Of a stretch of DNA of 64,000 nt, positions 20,225-59,863 are shown piece by piece. The stretch's first letter is position 1, and each line of letters starts with the position of its first letter. Location: positions 1,736,001-1,800,000 of the forward strand of contig NZ_CP114777.1 in NCBI RefSeq assembly GCF_027359355.1, in the 5' to 3' direction. Origin of the DNA: Prochlorococcus marinus str. MIT 1214 (GTDB lineage: Bacteria; Cyanobacteriota; Cyanobacteriia; PCC-6307; Cyanobiaceae). A model generated the notes under the pieces. That model had not been told where the DNA came from, did not search any database, and worked only from the letters and a program-made list of their open reading frames with translations. Made by a program: the position numbers and the translations under genes.

Positions 20225-20296
<72 letters not shown>

Positions 20297-20307
20297 TTGT
20301 GGAAAGA

Positions 20308-20389
20308 TGGGCCGGGTTGGATTTGAACCAACGTAGGCGTAGCCAGCGGATTTACAGTCCGCCCCCATTAACCACTCGGGCACCGACCC
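20308..20389 (-). tRNA. trnY: tRNA-Tyr(GUA), left copy
   Basis: An 82-nt class II tRNA with a long variable arm. The acceptor GGGTCGG pairs with CCGGCCC, the anticodon loop is CTGTAAA (anticodon GTA), and the T arm contains GGTTCAAATCC. It lies 11 bp upstream of tRNA-Thr in the direction of transcription and is identical to the copy at 28489-28570. Confidence 0.96.
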
Positions 20390-27260: not shown

Positions 27261-27384
27261 TTATACGTCTTGGGCGAAACTCTTCACCCCCCATACCCCA
27301 GCTGATAGTGGCTGTAGCGCATCAACATTCTTAGATCTTTGTGGCCACTAGCTTCTGAGATCTGTAGCGCATTCATTCCTGCTG
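27261..27384. repeat. Integrase 3'-end repeat, right copy
   Basis: This segment covers the last 34 codons of the intact integrase and 23 bp after its stop. It is repeated in the same orientation at 23299-23422 with scattered substitutions. That the copies include non-coding sequence shows the duplication was at DNA level and not only conserved protein sequence. Confidence 0.85.
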
Positions 27385-28264
27385 CCCACATATTGCTAAT
27401 GGCGATATGGCGCAGGTCATGAAAACGCAAATGATTCAAGCCTGCTGCTTTTCTGGCTCGATTAAAGCCATGACGAGCTGCTCCAATAGTTAAGTCGATC
27501 ACTCTTGGGTTGGTTTTGGGATAGTTCTTCAGGAGTGCAATTGATTGCGGTGATAGTGGCACGAATCTCTGACTGCTTTGTCTTCCTGTCGCTGCGCAAT
27601 CTTTGCGGCTCAGATGGACCAATTTGTTTTTTAAATCCAGATCGCTCCATTTAATGGCCAGTAATTCTGAGCGACGCATTCCTGTGGCAAGTGCTAATTG
27701 CGTCAGTCTTTTGTGATTAGGGTTCTTCGATTGGCCTAATGCAGTTAGTAATTTCTTTTTCTGTGCTGGTGTGAAGTAAGGGAATCTGGCATCGCTGACT
27801 CCTCGTACTTTTAATTCCCTCGCTGGATTGGAGCTCAGTTGGCATCCCAGTTCATCTTTGGCCCAATCCAATAGAACTCTCAAGATTCTGAGCTCTCTCA
27901 TGATTGTGTTGGGCTTGACCTTGATCAATCGTTCATCTCGCCAGAGAGCAAAATGTCTGATGGAAAGTTCTTCCAAAAGAACGCCACCCATCCAGCTGTT
28001 GGCCAATGCTTTTAATGGATATTGTTCGTTAGCCCCGCTGAGGTGATCTTGCAGTGGCCCTTGGATATACAGATCGATTGCTTCTCGTAAGATTTGAGGT
28101 GGTTTTAGATCAAGTTTTGCTGGCGTTTTAAGAGAACTTTCAACAGCATTTGCCCACAGTTTTGCAGCTGCTTTGGAGCTAAAAGTTTTGGATGTTTGGC
28201 CCTGATATTTCTTCTTTCTAATGAGTGCTTGCCAGCCACTTCCGCTTCTTCTAATCGTTGCCAT
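27284..28264 (-). CDS. int: Tyrosine recombinase (island integrase)
   Basis: The 326-aa protein has an N-terminal arm-binding-like region (residues 1-45), a core-binding domain (about 60-150) and a catalytic domain. The active-site set is complete: Arg in ATGMRRSELLAI, Lys in VHLSRKD, His and Arg in FHDLRHIAISN, His in ASGHKDLRM, and the nucleophile Tyr in MRYSHY. It catalyses site-specific recombination. Its start lies 140 bp from the right tRNA-Thr copy, and the two tRNA-bearing repeats are the natural candidates for its attachment sites. No excisionase is recognised; the ribbon-helix-helix proteins may serve. Confidence 0.93.
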   Translation of the reverse strand: MATIRRSGSGWQALIRKKKYQGQTSKTFSSKAAAKLWANAVESSLKTPAKLDLKPPQILREAIDLYIQGPLQDHLSGANEQYPLKALANSWMGGVLLEELSIRHFALWRDERLIKVKPNTIMRELRILRVLLDWAKDELGCQLSSNPARELKVRGVSDARFPYFTPAQKKKLLTALGQSKNPNHKRLTQLALATGMRRSELLAIKWSDLDLKNKLVHLSRKDCAATGRQSSQRFVPLSPQSIALLKNYPKTNPRVIDLTIGAARHGFNRARKAAGLNHLRFHDLRHIAISNMWAAGMNALQISEASGHKDLRMLMRYSHYQLGYGG

Positions 28265-28404: not shown

Positions 28405-28476
<72 letters not shown>

Positions 28477-28488
28477 TTGTGGAAAAGA

Positions 28489-28570
28489 TGGGCCGGGTTG
28501 GATTTGAACCAACGTAGGCGTAGCCAGCGGATTTACAGTCCGCCCCCATTAACCACTCGGGCACCGACCC
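28489..28570 (-). tRNA. trnY: tRNA-Tyr(GUA), right copy
   Basis: Identical to the left copy, with the class II long variable arm and anticodon GTA. The spacer to tRNA-Thr is one base longer than in the left copy. It faces aroQ divergently. Confidence 0.96.
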
Positions 28571-47044: not shown

Positions 47045-48511
47045 TTATATTACTGAATTAAATCTTGACCATAATTCATCTTCATTTTCTAGCCCTACTG
47101 ACACTCTTAATAAGTGTTCTGAGACGCCACAGCTTTCAGCCCATTTCAATTCTTTAAAGTGAGCCAACTGAACATATGGACAAACCAATGTAAAATTTGT
47201 ACCTAAACTTGGTCCTTTGTTTACTCTTAATGAATCATAAACTCTTTTTGATTCTTCAATCCCCCCTTTAAGTTCAAAAGATAATAGACATCCAAAACCT
47301 CCTCCTTTCTTTAATAATGAATTAAAATTTTTACAATGTTGAGGATGTAAAACCTTTGAAACTTCTTTTTTTGTTTCTAATTTTTCTTTCAGCTTTAAGC
47401 AAGAAGTATTTAACCTTTTTAAACGATCCTTTATGTCTCTACTAGTTAACTCCAACTCAATAGCATCTGAATCAGACAGTGTAGATAATGAAACTTTAGG
47501 AATTATCTCAGTTAATTCTTTTTTCCATTTAGAGTATGGGCTAATAACAGAGCTGCCAGCAAGAATATCTCCTCTTCCAGCAAAACTTTTTGTAAGAGAA
47601 CTAAAAATTACATCTGCGTAAGGAGTTAGGTGAACATTTATAGATGATCCGATTGTATCGTCAACAATGACAGGGATATTTTTATCTTTAGCTAATTTTG
47701 AAATAGAGATGAGGTCAACACATTGCAATAAAGGGTTGCTTGGTATTTCTATGATTAACGCGGCTGGATTCTTTTTCTCGATCTCCTCTTTTATATGACT
47801 TAATTTGGTTTGTACAATGAGATCACTCCCGTGGAAAATAATCTGAGGTAGCTTGAGTACGTCAACATATGGGAAGCCTATTTGAAGTGTCGAAGAAGCT
47901 CCTTTGATACAATATATCGCTGAAAGAATAGTCGTTAAGGCAGCCATGCCTGAACGATGTAGTCGTATGAGGCTATTATCGCAATCATATATATTCGCTA
48001 AGCGTTTAATAAGTTTGCCTCGAGCGTAATGCCCATCTGAAGCGGAGGGCATTCTCTCTCTCCCAAGGGCAATTGCAGCTTCACGTGATGACAATCCAAG
48101 ACCAGTGTGTTGCCAGAAGGCTTTTGCTGAAGGAGTACTTCTTTGGTCAACAATTAGGAATGAAATACCAAGAAACTCTTTTATTTTTGAAGAACAATCA
48201 GAAAATTTTCGATGACAATATTTTTGAGCACTCAAGGCAGAAGCTCTATTGGGATAGGGCCAACTACTTTGCTGTGATTCACCATGAAATCCAAGTGATT
48301 TACGAGCCACCTCCGCAACAAAAGGGTTAAAACCAAATCTAGGATAAATTGCTTTTAATGAATCTATACAGGCTGGAACCTTCTCTTCGTAGGCGATTAC
48401 ATCTTCCCATCTGGGTAAAGCAACAGATACGGCATGTGGCCTATTCGGTAGAGGCTCTCCTAAATCTTTAGCACTCCAGCAAGGATCAGTAAGCAAATTT
48501 CTTTCAGTCAA
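47045..48511 (-). CDS. Cys/Met-metabolism PLP enzyme (cystathionine gamma-synthase-like)
   Basis: The 488-aa protein is a diverged member of the Cys/Met-metabolism PLP fold. The PLP lysine lies in DVIFSSLTKSFAGRGDILAGS. The upstream IIEIPSNPLLQCVDLISIS and VIVDDTIGSSIN segments and the C-terminal LLRVSVGLENEDELW are typical. An extra approximately 110-residue N-terminal region precedes the family core, longer than in classic MetB. Its ATG overlaps the stop of the next gene upstream by four bases. The exact reaction is not certain; synthase or lyase activity on cystathionine is likely. Confidence 0.8.
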   Translation of the reverse strand: MTERNLLTDPCWSAKDLGEPLPNRPHAVSVALPRWEDVIAYEEKVPACIDSLKAIYPRFGFNPFVAEVARKSLGFHGESQQSSWPYPNRASALSAQKYCHRKFSDCSSKIKEFLGISFLIVDQRSTPSAKAFWQHTGLGLSSREAAIALGRERMPSASDGHYARGKLIKRLANIYDCDNSLIRLHRSGMAALTTILSAIYCIKGASSTLQIGFPYVDVLKLPQIIFHGSDLIVQTKLSHIKEEIEKKNPAALIIEIPSNPLLQCVDLISISKLAKDKNIPVIVDDTIGSSINVHLTPYADVIFSSLTKSFAGRGDILAGSSVISPYSKWKKELTEIIPKVSLSTLSDSDAIELELTSRDIKDRLKRLNTSCLKLKEKLETKKEVSKVLHPQHCKNFNSLLKKGGGFGCLLSFELKGGIEESKRVYDSLRVNKGPSLGTNFTLVCPYVQLAHFKELKWAESCGVSEHLLRVSVGLENEDELWSRFNSVI

Positions 48512-49677
48512 GAGATGTTTCCCAAGGCTTGATTTAAATCAGCACTCAAGTCCTTAATATCTTCACATCCGATGGAAAATCGAATAAGTGAATCAGTAAT
48601 TCCAATCTTTAATTTGGTTTCTTTGGGAACTGATGCGTGTGTCATTGTTGCTGGGTGGCAAACAAGGCTTTCAATTCCGCCGAGACTTTCTGCCATCTTA
48701 AAGTAATGAAGACTTTTGCAAAATGAATAAGTTTGGGCTTGAGTAGCGTTAATAGTGGCAGTAACAATTGCTCCTCCCAGAGTCATTTGCCTTTGTGCTA
48801 ATTTACACTGTGGATGATCACTCCTGAAGGGATATTGAACTGATTTTATTGCTGGATTGCTGGCTAATTGATTAGCTATTTTAGATGCATTATTTATTTG
48901 TTTTTCTAAGCGAAGTGGAAGAGTTTTTATCCCCCTGGTAATAAGCCAGCAATCAAAAGGTGAAGGATTTAAACCAAGAGCTTTTTGGGCGAAATTTAGT
49001 TTGTCTCTCCATACGGTACTCTCGGTGCATACCGCACCTCCAAGTGCGTCTGAGTGACCATTGATATACTTGGTCGTGCTAGTTAAAGATAAGGTCGCGC
49101 CAAGTTTAAGAGGTCTTTGTAAAAGAGGTGTTGCAAAAGTATTGTCTACAACAACAGGAATTTTCATTTTATTTGAGAAATTACAAATCGCCTCAATATC
49201 AAGAATTTTAAGCAGGGGGTTGGTCGGACTTTCGATCCAAATCATCGCAGGTTTGTGATTTGAAATGACTTTTTGAAAATTGGGCTTGGTAAAGTCTATC
49301 CATTGAGTTTTTAATCCAAAACGATTGAAAACTTGTTCAAATAATCTCACCGTACATCCATAAAGGTTCTCCTCACAAAGGATTAAGTCTCCAGCTTTAA
49401 GAGAGGAAACTATCGCTGTAATTGCTGCTACTCCAGAACTAAATACACTTGCGAACTTACATTCTTCCAGGTCAGATAAGACTGATTCAAGAATTCGAAA
49501 ATTTGGATTTCCTGAACGAGTGTAGTCAAAGCCACCCTCATTGCCATGAACGAAAGTTGATGTTGGGAAGATTGGAGGCATTATTGATCCAGTCTCTTCA
49601 GAAAAATTTTCTTTTGGATGAATGACTCTTGTGTTTACGCCAGTGCTGAACTCCTGTTCTCTTTTTACTGATCCCAT
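48508..49677 (-). CDS. metB: Cystathionine gamma-synthase or lyase (MetB/MetC family)
   Basis: The 389-aa protein is a canonical Cys/Met-metabolism PLP enzyme. It has TRVIHPKENF and DYTRSGNPNFRILE at the start, WIESPTNPLLKILDIEA, VVVDNTFATPLLQRPL, and the PLP lysine in LTSTTKYINGHSD. GGIESLVCHPATMTH and RFSIGCEDIKDL close the fold. It acts on cystathionine, joining or splitting cysteine and homoserine carbon. Sequence alone does not fix synthase versus lyase. It heads a minus-strand cluster with a paralogue and cysK. A striking dyad lies just upstream of its start. Confidence 0.9.
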   Translation of the reverse strand: MGSVKREQEFSTGVNTRVIHPKENFSEETGSIMPPIFPTSTFVHGNEGGFDYTRSGNPNFRILESVLSDLEECKFASVFSSGVAAITAIVSSLKAGDLILCEENLYGCTVRLFEQVFNRFGLKTQWIDFTKPNFQKVISNHKPAMIWIESPTNPLLKILDIEAICNFSNKMKIPVVVDNTFATPLLQRPLKLGATLSLTSTTKYINGHSDALGGAVCTESTVWRDKLNFAQKALGLNPSPFDCWLITRGIKTLPLRLEKQINNASKIANQLASNPAIKSVQYPFRSDHPQCKLAQRQMTLGGAIVTATINATQAQTYSFCKSLHYFKMAESLGGIESLVCHPATMTHASVPKETKLKIGITDSLIRFSIGCEDIKDLSADLNQALGNIS

Positions 49678-49713: not shown

Positions 49714-49988
49714 CATGAAAAAACACCTGAAAAAAGGGGCTCAATAAAGAAATTTAATGAGAAAGAATCTATGTGTAGCTCTATACCTTTCTTGAATAAG
49801 TCAAGATTTTAGTTGTAGCAACCAATTATAAAGAAAATTAGGTTGGATCTAAGTTTGACTATTTATTCCACAGATCGCACAATAAACACGAAATCGCTCT
49901 GATTGGCTATCCGTACAAACTCGTTCTCACGATTATCTTATTCGGGCGCGAGCATTAAAGAAGGAACAAGAAATTGGATTAATTCGCG
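49714..49988. other. Non-coding stretch at the edge of the accessory region
   Basis: About 275 bp without a convincing gene. It probably holds the promoter of the minus-strand sulfur cluster and of the small plus-strand gene at 49989. No other structure stands out. Confidence 0.4.
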
Positions 49989-50876: not shown

Positions 50877-51407
50877 CTAAGCATTAAAAAACTCAGTAAG
50901 TGATAAATCATTTCTTTTTAACAAAGCAAAAGTTGTACCCTTGTAACCTTTGCATATACGTAAGTCGGGAGATAATACAGTTGTATCTAGCCAACCTTTT
51001 TGAGTCTTTTTTATTTCTGATAGGAAACTAATCTTTTTATCTAGTAACTTTGGACCTATTATTCCTGCTTTTTTTAAGCTAATGTTTATACGTTTCTGAT
51101 CAATAATTTCTAAGCTAGCAAGAATGTTAGTAGAAAATAGCTTTCCTGCAAAACCTTTTGGTCTTAATAAATTTAGTCCTCTACTTCTCTTTGGCTCAAG
51201 TATCTGTAAGTTATCTAATAGCGGTGAATAACTTAAAAGAGGTGAGTTAGAAGTACTCCATCTAAGTTCCCATACACCTGTGAGCAGATCAATTTGCTTT
51301 GTTATGTCTACAGAGGATTCGTTTTCAGCTAGTTTAATGAGCTCTACGATCTGATTTGATTTAGGGGTATGTATAAGAACTTCTATCAATTTTGATATCG
51401 CACTCAT
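50877..51407 (-). CDS. PAP/fibrillin-family protein
   Basis: The 176-aa protein matches the plastid-lipid-associated protein/fibrillin domain. LLTGVWELRWSTSNSPLLSY follows an N-terminal helical part; LQILEPKRSRGLNLLRPKG then leads to a strand-rich middle, and the C-terminal LSPDLRICKGYKGTTFALLKR motif closes the barrel. These lipocalin-like proteins bind lipophilic molecules on thylakoids and lipid bodies. It is the last gene of a minus-strand string of very short genes, an unusual context. Confidence 0.78.
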   Translation of the reverse strand: MSAISKLIEVLIHTPKSNQIVELIKLAENESSVDITKQIDLLTGVWELRWSTSNSPLLSYSPLLDNLQILEPKRSRGLNLLRPKGFAGKLFSTNILASLEIIDQKRINISLKKAGIIGPKLLDKKISFLSEIKKTQKGWLDTTVLSPDLRICKGYKGTTFALLKRNDLSLTEFFNA

Positions 51408-53427: not shown

Positions 53428-53709
53428 TTAATTCTTGAAATCTACAAATTCGCTGATAAATGCTTTAAAACTAGAAATCCATCTACCTATTCTTGATGAA
53501 GAAGTAAGAGATTTAGCTAGTAGATCGATTTGTTCCTTTCTAACTTTGTATTTAAGTTCAAGTTCGCTTTTTGCAATAGCAAGGTTTGCTTGTTGAATAG
53601 AGAAATCATTCTTTCCTTCCCAGTCGTCGATATTTGACTTTAATTCTTCAATATCCATAGTTCTGCACTTGCTGATAAACGTCTGTAAATCATCAGGTTC
53701 GGAACGCAT
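53428..53709 (-). CDS. 93-aa helical protein, unknown
   Basis: The product starts MRSEPDDLQTFISKCRTMDI. It is helical and charged, with a likely coiled coil through residues 25-65 (IAKSELELKYKVRKEQIDLL). The frame is open upstream to a TTG at 53733; the ATG at 53709 is preferred. It is isolated on the minus strand just before the hli array. No family is recognised. Confidence 0.55.
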   Translation of the reverse strand: MRSEPDDLQTFISKCRTMDIEELKSNIDDWEGKNDFSIQQANLAIAKSELELKYKVRKEQIDLLAKSLTSSSRIGRWISSFKAFISEFVDFKN

Positions 53710-53966
53710 GAAAAATGTTTTATTTACAAGCAAAATCTAACTTGTAAATAAAATATCAAGGATGGGTAAACCCACTTGTAATTGGGCTATTTATACTTAT
53801 CAGGATTATCAATATATCTAATCATTGGATGAAAATCTTTCTAATTAGTTGCGGTATTTAGGGTTTGAGGCTTAAAGCGCTTAAGGATTAGAAGAAGCCG
53901 TACCGGACCGAATCTTTACTCTAGAAGACTGGTGCTTTACATTTCTTTACATAATTATTTTTGATA

Positions 53967-54176
53967 ATGACTTCTTCTTCTTCTTCTTCTCAGGTAATCA
54001 CTGAGTACGGCAAGCAAAACATCTTTGGCCGTGAAACACAGCCCCAGCTTGTCGAAGACTACACAAGTTATCCAGAAGAAGCAGAAAAGACAAATGGTCG
54101 TTGGGCGATGATTGGCTTTTTTAGTCTTCTCGTTTCTTACTTTACAACTGGTCAAATCATTCCTGGAATCTTTTGA
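53967..54176 (+). CDS. hli: High-light-inducible protein (Hlip) 1 of array
   Basis: The 69-aa protein starts with a Ser-rich leader and ends with EKTNGRWAMIGFFSLLVSYF then TTGQIIPGIF, a canonical single-helix chlorophyll a/b-binding protein with the E-x-x-N-G-R-x-A-M motif. Hlips bind chlorophyll and carotenoid as dimers at photosystem II and protect from excess light. It opens a run of six hli genes. The frame also has an ATG two codons upstream. The next gene overlaps its stop. Confidence 0.95.
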   Translation: MTSSSSSSQVITEYGKQNIFGRETQPQLVEDYTSYPEEAEKTNGRWAMIGFFSLLVSYFTTGQIIPGIF

Positions 54177-54337
54177 CTTCTGAATCACCTTCAGCATCTG
54201 GCAACTACATCAACGAAGTTGAGAAGTTCAAACCAGAAGACGCCGAGAAAACAAATGGTCGCTTGGCAATGCTCGGCATGATCGCTCTACTCGGTGCCTA
54301 CTCAATAACCCACCAAATCATTCCTGGAATCTTCTAA
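54173..54337 (+). CDS. hli: High-light-inducible protein 2 of array
   Basis: The 54-aa protein ends with EKTNGRLAMLGMIALLGAYS then ITHQIIPGIF, with the complete E-x-x-N-G-R-x-A-M motif. The only start is a TTG at 54173 that overlaps the stop of Hlip 1 (TTGA), which points to translational coupling. The threonine-glycine before QIIPG is replaced by Thr-His. Confidence 0.88.
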   Translation: MTSESPSASGNYINEVEKFKPEDAEKTNGRLAMLGMIALLGAYSITHQIIPGIF

Positions 54338-54348
54338 AACAATTAATC

Positions 54349-54468
54349 ATGCAACCATCTAACAAAACAATTCTAGAAAGAAGCATCGGCAGACCAGCCA
54401 TGATGGCCTTCGTTCTACTAACAGGTATTTACCTAACAACCGGTCAACTTATCCCAGGTGTCGTTTAA
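54349..54468 (+). CDS. hli: Short high-light-inducible protein 3, altered motif
   Basis: The 39-aa protein contains LERSIGRPAMMAFVLLTGIY then LTTGQLIPGVV. The helix and the C-terminal TTGQLIPG tail are those of an Hlip, but the Asn of the chlorophyll-binding motif is Ile (E-R-S-I-G-R). Its stop shares a base with the next start (TAATG). Confidence 0.82.
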   Translation: MQPSNKTILERSIGRPAMMAFVLLTGIYLTTGQLIPGVV

Positions 54469-54614
54469 TGACTACTCAAAATAACAACAACAGAAACATT
54501 GATCCTGAAAAGGTAACTGCAGAGAGACTTAACGGCTATGCAGCATTGTTTGGATGCATTGCTCTAGTCGGTGCCTATGCAACAACAGGTCAAATCATCC
54601 CAGGTTTCGTGTAA
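54468..54614 (+). CDS. hli: High-light-inducible protein 4, Arg-less motif
   Basis: The 48-aa protein starts MTTQNNNNRNIDPEKVTAER and continues LNGYAALFGCIALVGAYATT then GQIIPGFV. It has E-R-L-N-G-Y where canonical Hlips have E-x-x-N-G-R. Start and stop each share one base with the neighbours. It is most similar to Hlip 5, so the two look like a recent duplication. Confidence 0.88.
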   Translation: MTTQNNNNRNIDPEKVTAERLNGYAALFGCIALVGAYATTGQIIPGFV

Positions 54615-54760
54615 TGAAAAATCAAACCACTGAAACGCCAAGAGTAGAAGAAAGCAAAGTGTTTGCTGAACGACTCAATGGTTTAGCTGCCTCTGTTGGA
54701 TGCTTAGCTCTCATTGGTGCATACTTAACAACAGGTCAAATCATTCCAGGTTTTGTGTAA
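54614..54760 (+). CDS. hli: High-light-inducible protein 5, Arg-less motif
   Basis: The 48-aa protein starts MKNQTTETPRVEESKVFAER and continues LNGLAASVGCLALIGAYLTT then GQIIPGFV. The motif is E-R-L-N-G-L. It is the same length as Hlip 4 with a shared E-R-L-N-G and GQIIPGFV core. The ATG overlaps the previous stop and its own stop overlaps the next ATG. Confidence 0.88.
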   Translation: MKNQTTETPRVEESKVFAERLNGLAASVGCLALIGAYLTTGQIIPGFV

Positions 54761-54885
54761 TGAATAAAGAAACGAACTACTGGAAAACAGCAGAGCAAAT
54801 GAACGGTCGTCTAGCGATGATGGGCTTCTTTGCTGCAGTCATTAACTATGGATTCACAGGTTGGATTGTTCCTGGAATTGTTTAG
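54760..54885 (+). CDS. hli: High-light-inducible protein 6 of array
   Basis: The 41-aa protein starts MNKETNYWKTAEQMNGRLAM and continues MGFFAAVINYGFTGWIVPG. It has the complete E-Q-M-N-G-R-L-A-M motif, unlike the two genes before it. Its tail GWIVPG differs from the GQIIPG of the others and matches the general host-type Hlip. A strong terminator follows. Confidence 0.92.
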   Translation: MNKETNYWKTAEQMNGRLAMMGFFAAVINYGFTGWIVPGIV

Positions 54886-56085: not shown

Positions 56086-56436
56086 GACTTTTTAGAAAAA
56101 ATTAACTTTAATCATTGTGTTGAGTGTTCGAGAGCGGAATACCGAACGATCATCAATAAGATTGAATATAAAAAAGCTTAATTTCATCAAGCTCAGCTAG
56201 TCAGTTTTGACATTGTTGTTTTAGTTTCGTTTGGCTGACTGTTGAATGTAGTTTGACTTCTCTTTCAAAGGTTTGACCCCAGTCATCTTCCAAATAGGTC
56301 AAGCTAGCTAAAAGACGCACAGTGATAGGGGTATGTGTATGTTTTTGATTAATGTTTGATAGTGTTTCTATAAGTATTTATTATCTGGTTTTGTATTCAC
56401 ATATACGATAAACAAGCTTAGTAGAAGACATTGAAG
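56086..56436. other. Non-coding stretch
   Basis: 350 bp with no convincing gene. It should contain the promoters for the minus-strand hli gene and for the plus-strand gene at 56437. Confidence 0.35.
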
Positions 56437-56859
56437 ATGCCTGTGGCCACGTATCTGAAGGATAAGCAAAAGAAAATTGAATCAAAATATCATCAAGTTG
56501 CCAAACAATTTGAATCGAAATATGAGCTAATCCATCGGAAGGTAACCTCAAGGTTTCATAGAGAAGTACCTGAAATAGAACTCGTTCGTTCAAGCCTTAA
56601 TGATTTGATCGCAAAATCTACAGCATCGGTTGAAAGGAAAATAAAATCAAAAAGTAAAACATCTATCTTCTCTCAAACGTCTACTAAAAAAGGAGCTAAC
56701 TCTTATCAAGAAAATATTGATTGGACACGAGGTAGATTCTCAGGACAAACAATACAAATCGTTGTAAGGGATGGCAAAATAATGGAGAAGGTTTTCTTAA
56801 CTCCTAAAGGAAATAAGATTTCTGTTAAGAGAAGCGAGTTAGGACTACTGTTGAGATGA
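56437..56859 (+). CDS. Basic helical protein, unknown
   Basis: The 140-aa product starts MPVATYLKDKQKKIESKYHQ. Residues 1-90 are helical and very basic; the last 50 include WTRGRFSGQTIQIVVRDGKI and a strand-rich tail. A TTG two codons upstream is also in frame. It resembles no family I know; a nucleic-acid-binding role is only suggested by the charge. Confidence 0.55.
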   Translation: MPVATYLKDKQKKIESKYHQVAKQFESKYELIHRKVTSRFHREVPEIELVRSSLNDLIAKSTASVERKIKSKSKTSIFSQTSTKKGANSYQENIDWTRGRFSGQTIQIVVRDGKIMEKVFLTPKGNKISVKRSELGLLLR

Positions 56860-57159: not shown

Positions 57160-57375
57160 ATGAATATAAGCCAACGTATTACTATTGCATGGGCGGCTCA
57201 GAGGGTTTCTTATCTCGATAGCCTTAAGAGGTACGAAGATGGCTACGCTGTTAGCCAAGAATTCTGTGAATGGACTACCTGTTTGAATGTCTATCCAGAA
57301 GGACTTAAAGCTGCAACGCTAAACGTTCCAGATTTCAACAAGGAAAACCGTACTAGACAAGCAACGCAATCGTAA
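57160..57375 (+). CDS. 71-aa hypothetical protein
   Basis: The product starts MNISQRITIAWAAQRVSYLD. It is soluble and helical at first, and contains EFCEWTTCLNVYPEGLKA with two Cys residues. A terminator-like hairpin follows 50 bp later. The family is unknown. Confidence 0.5.
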   Translation: MNISQRITIAWAAQRVSYLDSLKRYEDGYAVSQEFCEWTTCLNVYPEGLKAATLNVPDFNKENRTRQATQS

Positions 57376-57458: not shown

Positions 57459-57491
57459 CTTATTGCTAATTAGTTATTGAAATTTAGAACA

Positions 57492-57701
57492 ATGAGTCAC
57501 CACAACGCTACCCTTAATTTCTCTCATGCACGATATAAGAACAAGGCTTCTTTAAGTGAATTAGATCGAGAAATAGAAATGGGAGAACTAAGACTTAGAT
57601 ATATACAGCTAATGAGAGATGTTCATAAGATTCTTGGAAAGGAAGATGCGATTGAATTGATTAAAGAATCAGAGGGTATCTGGGAAAAACTTACTTCTTG
57701 A
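57492..57701 (+). CDS. 69-aa helical protein, unknown
   Basis: The product starts MSHHNATLNFSHARYKNKAS. It is charged and helical throughout (LDREIEMGELRLRYIQLMRD). The frame is open to a TTG at 57477, but the ATG at 57492 is the better start. It converges with the broken integrase 38 bp away. Confidence 0.5.
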   Translation: MSHHNATLNFSHARYKNKASLSELDREIEMGELRLRYIQLMRDVHKILGKEDAIELIKESEGIWEKLTS

Positions 57702-57739: not shown

Positions 57740-59183
57740 TTAATCCTCTAGATAGCTATCTTTAAAAGTCCTTCTTCGTCCTTTGATTCCATATTCAATT
57801 TCTGTTAGCTCCTTCGATTCTCTACCCATATCTAGCTTTGCGTAATACCTTTCGCAGACTGCAATGCTATGACCCGCAAGCTTAGCGACGTCATAAATAT
57901 CCTTGCCTTGCAAAATCAAATTGCAAATGAAAGTGCTTCTTAAGCTGTATGGGGTGTAGTTCCTATCGCTAAAGACATAGGGTTTCAATTCGTCTCCACA
58001 TAGTTCGATCATCCTTATCCATATTGTATTTAACATTGAGTATGGAAATTGCTTCATCTCATTAGCTGGGTTGCCAAAGATTAAATCTGTATCTTTAATC
58101 TTTTGATCTTGATAGTATCGACTTAAGTACTCTTTTTGTTCTTTCCTCCATTCAAGTAGTTGACTATCCACTCCATTTGTGGGTACGGCTCTTTGTTTCC
58201 CAGTCTTAGTATCTTTTATATAAATAATTGCGATCCGTTTATCTTCTGTTTCCCCTTTGGACTTGCTCCATCTTCCTACGTTCTCCCTTTTGACATCACG
58301 CCATCTCAACTTATTCAGTTTAATGTTTGGACGTAAGCCACTGTTTTTACAAATTAAACACCATCGATAAAACAACTGATTGAAGTAGACACCTTTACCT
58401 TTTACTGAATACTTAGCGGGACCTCTTCCTGTCTTTCTGTTTTTAATCATCTGCTTCAAAGTCTTTACTACTAAATTCCAGTTCCCTTCTTCTATGAGAG
58501 GCGGGTTGGCGTCTATTTCGGATTCTTTAGTGACTATCTTTGGCATTAATCTTTTTCATCTAGTGAGTTGATTAATAATCCTCTTGGTTTGCAGTAGCCA
58601 ATGAAAAAATCGTTAAAGTAAACCAGTTCAATTCTTCTAGTCGACTTTTTTGCTTTTCTCCAAGTTATGTACTCTTGAAAAGTGTTGTTATCTATTTGGT
58701 GGGTTTTCTCGATTCCTTTGTAGCTGAGATACTTCTCGAGCTGTTTTTAACCTTGTGCTTTATTTTGTAGAGATTTTTCTTTTAATAGAACAGCATCTAC
58801 TTTTTTTTCTCTTCATCAAGGAAGTTATTGAGTCACTTTCTAATACTGACTTTCTTTGACCTAACCATATTCTCGGTAATCATTCTTGCGCGTCTTCTTG
58901 GACTATTGCTTTCGATTTCATACTGTGCTTTTCTGATCGCTAACTCTTGCGCATGCTCTAAGATTTCACTTCTTAATGCGTTATGTGCATCGAGTGACTT
59001 ATCAATGGCAGCCTCTAACGTATTGGCTCCATCAATAACTTTTTATCTGTACTTCTTAGTCCCTGGGATTAGTTCACGATACAAGAAAACATCAGGAGCT
59101 CTTGTGAAAGACAAGACAACGCCTTTACCTCCGAAAACTTTTGATTTCTCTGCAATATTCGGCATGAAAAAAACTCTTGCCAT
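57740..59183 (-). pseudogene. Full-length but broken tyrosine recombinase
   Basis: Read on the minus strand from the ATG at 59181-59183, it encodes an integrase of about 480 residues. The N-terminus has RAPDVFLYRELIPGTKKYR. A core-binding segment (FQEYITWRKAKKSTRR, VYFNDFFIGYCKPRG) follows, then the catalytic half, still open as a 268-codon frame. It is interrupted by stops at 59043-59045, 58833-58835 and 58747-58749 and by frameshifts near 58800 and at 58546. The catalytic half keeps Arg (SGLRPNIKL), Arg (YSLRSTF), His (AGHSIAV) and Tyr (ERYYAKL), but the His of H-x-x-R is Tyr. It is dead as a whole. Confidence 0.88.
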
Positions 59184-59254
59184 ACTGAAAGCAGCGCAGC
59201 AAGAGTTTGACTAAAGTTGGACTGAGGTTAAGAAAAGCCAGTAATAGACTAGTT

Positions 59255-59863
59255 CTAAACTTTTCTTGAGTAATACTCAACAACTAACAATTCATTGATT
59301 TCTATGGCAACCCATTCCCTATCTGTCTTTGCAGATATCTTTGCCGAAAGCTTAGTTTTATCAAGCTCAAGGTGTGGAGGAACATTCGCAAGACCTGGAA
59401 ACTCTAAGTTTGCTTGAGCCAATTGCTTAGAAGCTTTGCTATCTCGGATTGCGATAACATCTCCAGCTTTGCATTGAAAACTTGCAATGTCAGTGATCCG
59501 GCCATTAACGGTGACATGTCCGTGGTTTACTAGTTGCCTTGCCCCTGGGATAGTGGGTCCAAATCCAAGTCTAAAACAAATATTATCAAGCCTATTTTCC
59601 AAAAGCTTTAAGAGATTTGTTCCAGTGGAACCCTCTTGAGCACGAGCTTTCTTTACATAGCGAACAAGCTGGCGTTCAGAGATTCCATAATTGAATCGAA
59701 GTTTTTGCTTCTCTTCGAGTCTGATCGCGTATTCAGAGCGCTTGCGACGGGCTTGGCCGTGCTGACCTGGTGGATGGGACCTTTTTGCGGCCTTCCGGGT
59801 GAGACCAGGAAGGTCTCCCAAGCGACGCGTGATCCTCAGCCGAGGTCCGCGGTATCTAGACAT
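59255..59863 (-). CDS. rpsD: 30S ribosomal protein S4
   Basis: The 202-aa protein starts [20 protein letters not shown] and has the S4 RNA-binding domain at [20 protein letters not shown] and [13 protein letters not shown]4 starts 30S assembly by binding the 5' domain of 16S rRNA. It is at the right edge of the accessory region: the broken integrase ends its 5' part 71 bp after the rpsD stop. It is divergent from yidD. Confidence 0.98.

Follow-up and report, generated by a model that had tools for sequence, protein, structure and literature searches.

Integrase-bearing islands seated at rpsD have been described in Streptococcus agalactiae as SagCI / PICI1 and PICI2 (PMC4129442, PMC7487436). 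SagCI inserts at the 3′ end of rpsD; the gene is left readable in these islands, which are about 15 kb long, with 398-aa integrases, a primase and a phage-satellite layout in firmicute hosts. The 3′ end of rpsD, a target in group B Streptococcus, is therefore not a site new to biology. In Prochlorococcus, the closest described systems are the tycheposons, cargo islands that carry a tyrosine recombinase, vary between strains and are described at seven tRNA genes (PMC10872708). The picocyanobacterial integrase family cluster158946 likewise marks variable islands in Prochlorococcus and Synechococcus and adjoins tRNA-Phe or tRNA-Cys (PMC10187409).

We analysed a 64,000-nucleotide stretch of the Prochlorococcus marinus str. 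MIT 1214 genome, hereafter the window, in which a broken tyrosine integrase lies beside rpsD. To judge from its sequence, the feature works like a site-specific integrative island. It shares with SagCI the insertion at the rpsD 3′ end and a gene left readable, but not the integrase length, primase, phage-satellite layout, size or firmicute host; compared by description, the choice of the same site would be convergent. It resembles the tycheposons as a variable Prochlorococcus cargo island with a tyrosine recombinase; unlike them, it targets a protein gene, with no tRNA between positions 28570 and 64000 of the window, so that rpsD takes the place of the tRNA gene into which a tycheposon integrates. 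The integrase likewise differs from cluster158946, set beside it by description, in having no tRNA-Phe or tRNA-Cys neighbour. A search of openly licensed literature gave no report of an rpsD island for Prochlorococcus or Synechococcus. The locus adds a protein-gene site to the tRNA-sited islands of Prochlorococcus, and more than half of the sampled genomes have an island there.

Our main reading, to which we assign a probability of about 0.9, is that an integrative island, now immobilised, survives in the window as a remnant, and that its tyrosine integrase of 475 aa would have acted on the 3′ end of rpsD at a short core lying within TA[CT]TCAAGAAA.

Attachment-site copies and the exchanged end of rpsD

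The target gene rpsD (30S ribosomal protein S4; 59255..59863, minus strand), identified by its ORF and synteny and carrying element-borne last codons and stop, was located in 34 of 41 genomes of the same genus; the seven in which it was not found were left uncounted. In 28 of the 41, rpsD shares a contig with the metB-like gene (48508..49677, minus strand), its chromosomal neighbour in empty strains according to genome comparison. The two genes are 101–117 bp apart in 15 of these genomes and 1.2–17.9 kb apart in 13. Six genomes on broken contigs were labelled occupied by the element end that follows rpsD, giving 15 empty and 19 occupied sites among the 34. The empty site between rpsD and the metB-like gene that the sequence-only reading proposed seeking in other strains is thus present in 15 of the 34. 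The left end of the element was found in 18/19 occupied and 0/15 empty genomes.

The island measures about 9.5 kb and has a copy of the rpsD 3′ end on either side. The rpsD-side copy, attL (59256..59275, minus strand), reads TAT TAC TCA AGA AAA GTT TA(G), and the far copy, attR (49782..49801, minus strand), obtained by a far-copy scan, keeps the chromosomal AAG GTA TA form. A far copy with no more than five mismatches in 20 positions was detected in 18 of 20 islands, a set that includes one (G015) known on the far (metB) side only, versus 0 of 1420 control windows. These copies lie 119–126 bp before the metB-like gene, and the remaining two show seven (G017) and six (G026) mismatches. The target is directly repeated on the two sides of the island (18/20 islands) and relatives have empty sites (15/34 genomes), both of them marks of a site-specific integrative element.

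The attachment-site copies also differ by a codon marker. Occupied genomes have AAA as the penultimate rpsD codon (19/19) and empty ones AAG (15/15), and the codon after it is GTT in 17/19 occupied and GTA in 13/15 empty genomes; the S4 protein sequence stays the same. The chromosomal form is mostly kept in the far copy, with the exception of G009, which has the AAA form there. The AAA codon reads as the scar of the element bringing its own gene end, as recombination inside the core would leave. Putative integrase arm sites, a pair of 9-bp arm-like repeats (AGTCCAACT / AGTCAAACT; 59204..59223, minus strand), were found near attL by pattern scan, the first repeat being absent in G017 and G037. 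At the far end (49841..49860, minus strand), the same scan gave AGTCAAACT, accompanied by a second, degenerate copy recognised by eye.

Between the end of rpsD and the start of the integrase lies a predicted intrinsic terminator supplied by the element, a hairpin followed by a T run (59171..59208, minus strand). Hairpins of −6 kcal/mol or better, our threshold, occur here in 19/19 occupied genomes, whose related rows make these terminator counts other than independent trials, whereas 21/892 interior windows and 8/380 shuffles reach this value. The hairpin is kept even in four genomes (G001, G005, G022, and G025) where only about 110–150 bases of the element's left end remain, and conservation in the alignment is 0.98–0.99 in the stem columns versus 0.86–0.87 in loop and spacer. 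The host terminator is intact at 15/15 empty sites, while its displaced copies are intact in 9/20 and decayed in 11/20 cases; in the window, the stem of the displaced original (49718..49742, minus strand) is broken and no qualifying hairpin is present. We read this as rpsD now probably ending on the element's terminator, the old one being free to decay, and selection presumably keeps the element's terminator in place. Alternatively, the left end may be kept because its arm sites are retained for mobilisation in trans.

In the mechanism that we propose, the integrase would recombine the short core, whereby rpsD would receive the last codons, stop and intrinsic terminator of the element and its original tail and terminator would be pushed to the far end, before the metB-like gene; both of these outcomes can be followed in the sequence. 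Once the rpsD end had been captured, the integrase would decay freely. As rpsD would now need the element's terminator, the left edge would be kept and the islands would erode from inside. The swapped-in end may in this way explain how an island shrinks without ever losing that edge. A bolder extension, to which we give slightly less than even odds, is that, because rpsD is essential, the element's own stop and terminator would make the left edge undeletable and turn dead copies into seeds of a permanent variable site, with an integrase possibly tuned to ribosome synthesis. The integrase start codon is directly behind the T run of the terminator, so an inserted element may rely on read-through from rpsD to express its integrase; S4 is an antitermination factor in Escherichia coli, hence the possible tuning to ribosome synthesis. 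The natural pairs of empty and occupied sites make supplied and displaced terminators comparable, and the question of why edges outlive recombinases directly testable.

A decayed tyrosine integrase

The sequence-only reading had described a complete integrase of about 480 codons, broken by three stops and two frameshifts, and this was borne out at 475 codons. A frame walk of window positions 57740–59183 gave a broken integrase frame on the minus strand, and tblastn of the intact G014 homolog against the window returned three collinear segments covering codons 1–475 at 93–94% identity. Codon-level alignment gave exactly five lesions, namely in-frame stops at codon 41 (window about 59045), codon 111 (about 58835) and codon 140 (about 58749) and losses of one base at codons 120 (about 58808) and 204 (about 58557). 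The proposed gap of 71 bp to rpsD holds for an upstream ATG at 59183; by homology, the start is instead at 59165 and the gap 89 bp, placing the pseudogene at 57740..59165 (minus strand). Comparison with relatives, proposed at the outset, gave intact 475-codon homologs at the same place in G014 and G004, and the window frame is therefore not due to chance. These two share 94% identity (dN 0.024, dS 0.070) and are the only intact copies among the 19 occupied genomes, most copies being dead or without integrase.

Among six near-complete copies, only that of the window has these three stops; G037 carries a different base change, also creating a stop, at codon 41. Both one-base losses fall in A-runs, A8 being shortened to A7 in 4/6 copies and A6 to A5 in 2/6, a variation that suggests recurrent slippage. 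We considered programmed frameshifting at the A8 run but prefer such slippage, because both intact copies carry A8 in frame. Identical lesions in every strain, which would have pointed to an old fixed relic, were looked for, and the lesions differ among copies; the integrase is thus not one fixed old relic identical letter for letter.

The open catalytic part (57740..58546, minus strand; 268 codons) passes the Pfam cut-off for PF00589 with 37.7 bits versus 27.1 (E 2e-9), and the intact homolog scores 35.9 bits. R279, K321, Y407-x-x-R410, H433, and Y442, which we take to be the catalytic set with a tyrosine at the usual histidine position, are invariant in seven aligned sequences that include this open part. 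By domain score and catalytic residues, the feature is a tyrosine recombinase of the phage-integrase family. N-terminal, core-binding and catalytic parts had all been reported as recognisable. Pfam supports the catalytic one; in the intact homolog, the SAM-like region for core binding stays below the cut-off (18.0 versus 22.3 bits) and the N-terminal part matched no Pfam model, while a PHROG integrase family spans residues 35–453. A PDB sequence search with the integrase found nothing, a plasmid search gave one weak match, and the AlphaFold model of the intact homolog reached a pLDDT of 42, from which the integrase fold could not be confirmed.

Cargo, movement between lineages and rival explanations

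Next to the integrase and convergent with it lies a 74-aa ORF (57477..57701, plus strand), followed by a 71-aa ORF (57160..57375, plus strand); in the ORF list and island comparison both recur in other islands. A 142-aa ORF (56431..56859, plus strand) has homologs in 24 of the 41 genus genomes, inside and outside rpsD islands, and its use as a hallmark of the element was dropped because it is so widespread outside them. A 93% identical copy lies at G003:C1:1412314-1412733, in a genome that is empty at rpsD. Further along, the ORF list gives a run of five small ORFs (53961..54885, plus strand) that we take to be high-light-inducible (hli)-like from a sequence motif; they yielded one weak PF00504 match, below the cut-off. 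The island also encodes a 101-aa protein with no family match in Pfam or PHROG (53428..53733, minus strand) and a PAP/fibrillin-domain protein (50877..51407, minus strand; PF04755, E 6e-15). No relaxase or mating-pair gene was found among the nine window cargo proteins scanned against Pfam.

A tree built from the 4.1-kb flank upstream of rpsD requires 10 changes of occupancy, nine of which are imposed by well-supported branches, and occupied genomes do not group together more than in shuffles (132/500 as low). The integrase region differs by a p-distance of 0.029 where the core flank differs by 0.181 (G000–G014) and by 0.033 versus 0.176 (G004–G014). Such 97% identity next to an 82% identical flank shows that the element moved sideways between lineages of the genus. 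Over all pairs of occupied genomes the signal is different: the distance is smaller on the rpsD side than in the core for only 35 of 74 pairs (at least 300 nt), and for the cargo this holds in 65 of 94 (at least 1000 nt). Many pairs being no closer in the element than in the core, many islands are therefore old and decayed. In G006 (L039), the rpsD-side end of the element occurs again within the island, 4415 bp after the rpsD stop, which may point to a tandem or nested element.

Decay, the two A-run losses common to several copies and the 39/74 pairs whose rpsD-side regions are no more alike than their cores would fit an old element that became fixed a single time in an ancestor, was then passed on vertically with many losses and never moved horizontally. 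We judge this very unlikely given the 3% difference of the integrase region where the flank differs by 18%, the correlation of −0.51 between integrase and core distances over 15 pairs of six copies, and the absence of the AAA codon from all 15 empty sites. A spread mainly through homologous recombination in the flanks rather than through the integrase is easier to envisage, since most copies have a dead or missing integrase (intact in 2/19) and their recent spread may have used this route. Yet identity rises from 0.85–0.90 in rpsD before the core to 0.90–0.98 just after the core in eight pairs, modestly in some, which indicates that the flanks were not co-transferred in these pairs, and we hold flank recombination as the main route to be unlikely.

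The origin of the element and of its cargo leaves two further explanations. The PHROG matches of the integrase could indicate a prophage remnant, which we regard as highly improbable: the intact integrase has no match among 50,697 phage records and its best IMG/VR hit shows only 45% identity over 42 residues, so that the comparison with cyanophages suggested at the outset gave no close relative, and no virion or lysis gene was recognised by eye among the listed island ORFs. The integrase might also have done no more than open the site, with later accretion of the hli-like and small genes by other means. Island contents differ from one to the next, the 4.3-kb cargo block (50.9–55.2 kb) recurs in pieces in more islands, shorter matches to it, of which many are hli-like stretches, are spread over all 41 genomes, and G003 holds its copy of the 142-aa ORF away from its empty rpsD site. 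Against such accretion, which we consider rather doubtful, full-length recurrence of the block at 88–92% was restricted to rpsD islands (G001, G005, G014, and G022). The cargo lies between the two attachment-site copies, which supports the earlier suggestion that the island explains the arrival of the small-gene and hli cargo; we infer that the hli-like and small-gene block is the element's cargo and that the integrase brought in exactly this set.

Related integrases and neighbouring islands

Outside the genus, the closest integrases in 400 genomes of the family are 47–55% identical (G127, G157, G245, G299, and G149). In the Synechococcus-type genomes G127, G245, and G299, an integrase with 51–55% identity directly follows rpsD, and related integrases thus occupy the same site there. 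Their islands share with the window the gene end, the arm-like repeats and a hairpin reaching the −6 kcal/mol threshold, but carry different cargo. A far copy of the rpsD end is present in G245 and G299, and none was found in G127 within the 19.9 kb read. The AAA/AAG contrast is repeated in G245 but not in G299, where both copies have AAA. The rpsD site is in this respect common to Synechococcus-type genomes and carries stress-type cargo. In G157 (L134, 7007–8540), the integrase lies at the metB end in inverted orientation, next to a tandem pair of core-like sequences.

The 47% identical relative in G149 (L135) follows a rhodanese-like gene, named by eye, and not rpsD. Among more distant relatives of about 30% identity, surveyed at 16 loci, the one in G030 (L019) follows an IscA-like gene, also named by eye. 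This clade of integrases may therefore favour the ends of protein genes.

The same genome as the window encodes two more tyrosine recombinases (L003, C1:129022; L004, C1:1898126), with no tRNA within 1.5 kb. An intact 326-aa integrase is also present in the window at 27284–28264; it had been assigned to a different type from the rpsD-linked one, in agreement with BLASTP, which found no meaningful similarity between the two (best E 0.67). It lies beside the second of two tRNA-Thr/tRNA-Tyr pairs (20225–20389 and 28405–28570), and the segment 20225–28570 that they enclose is a tRNA-sited, tycheposon-like island.
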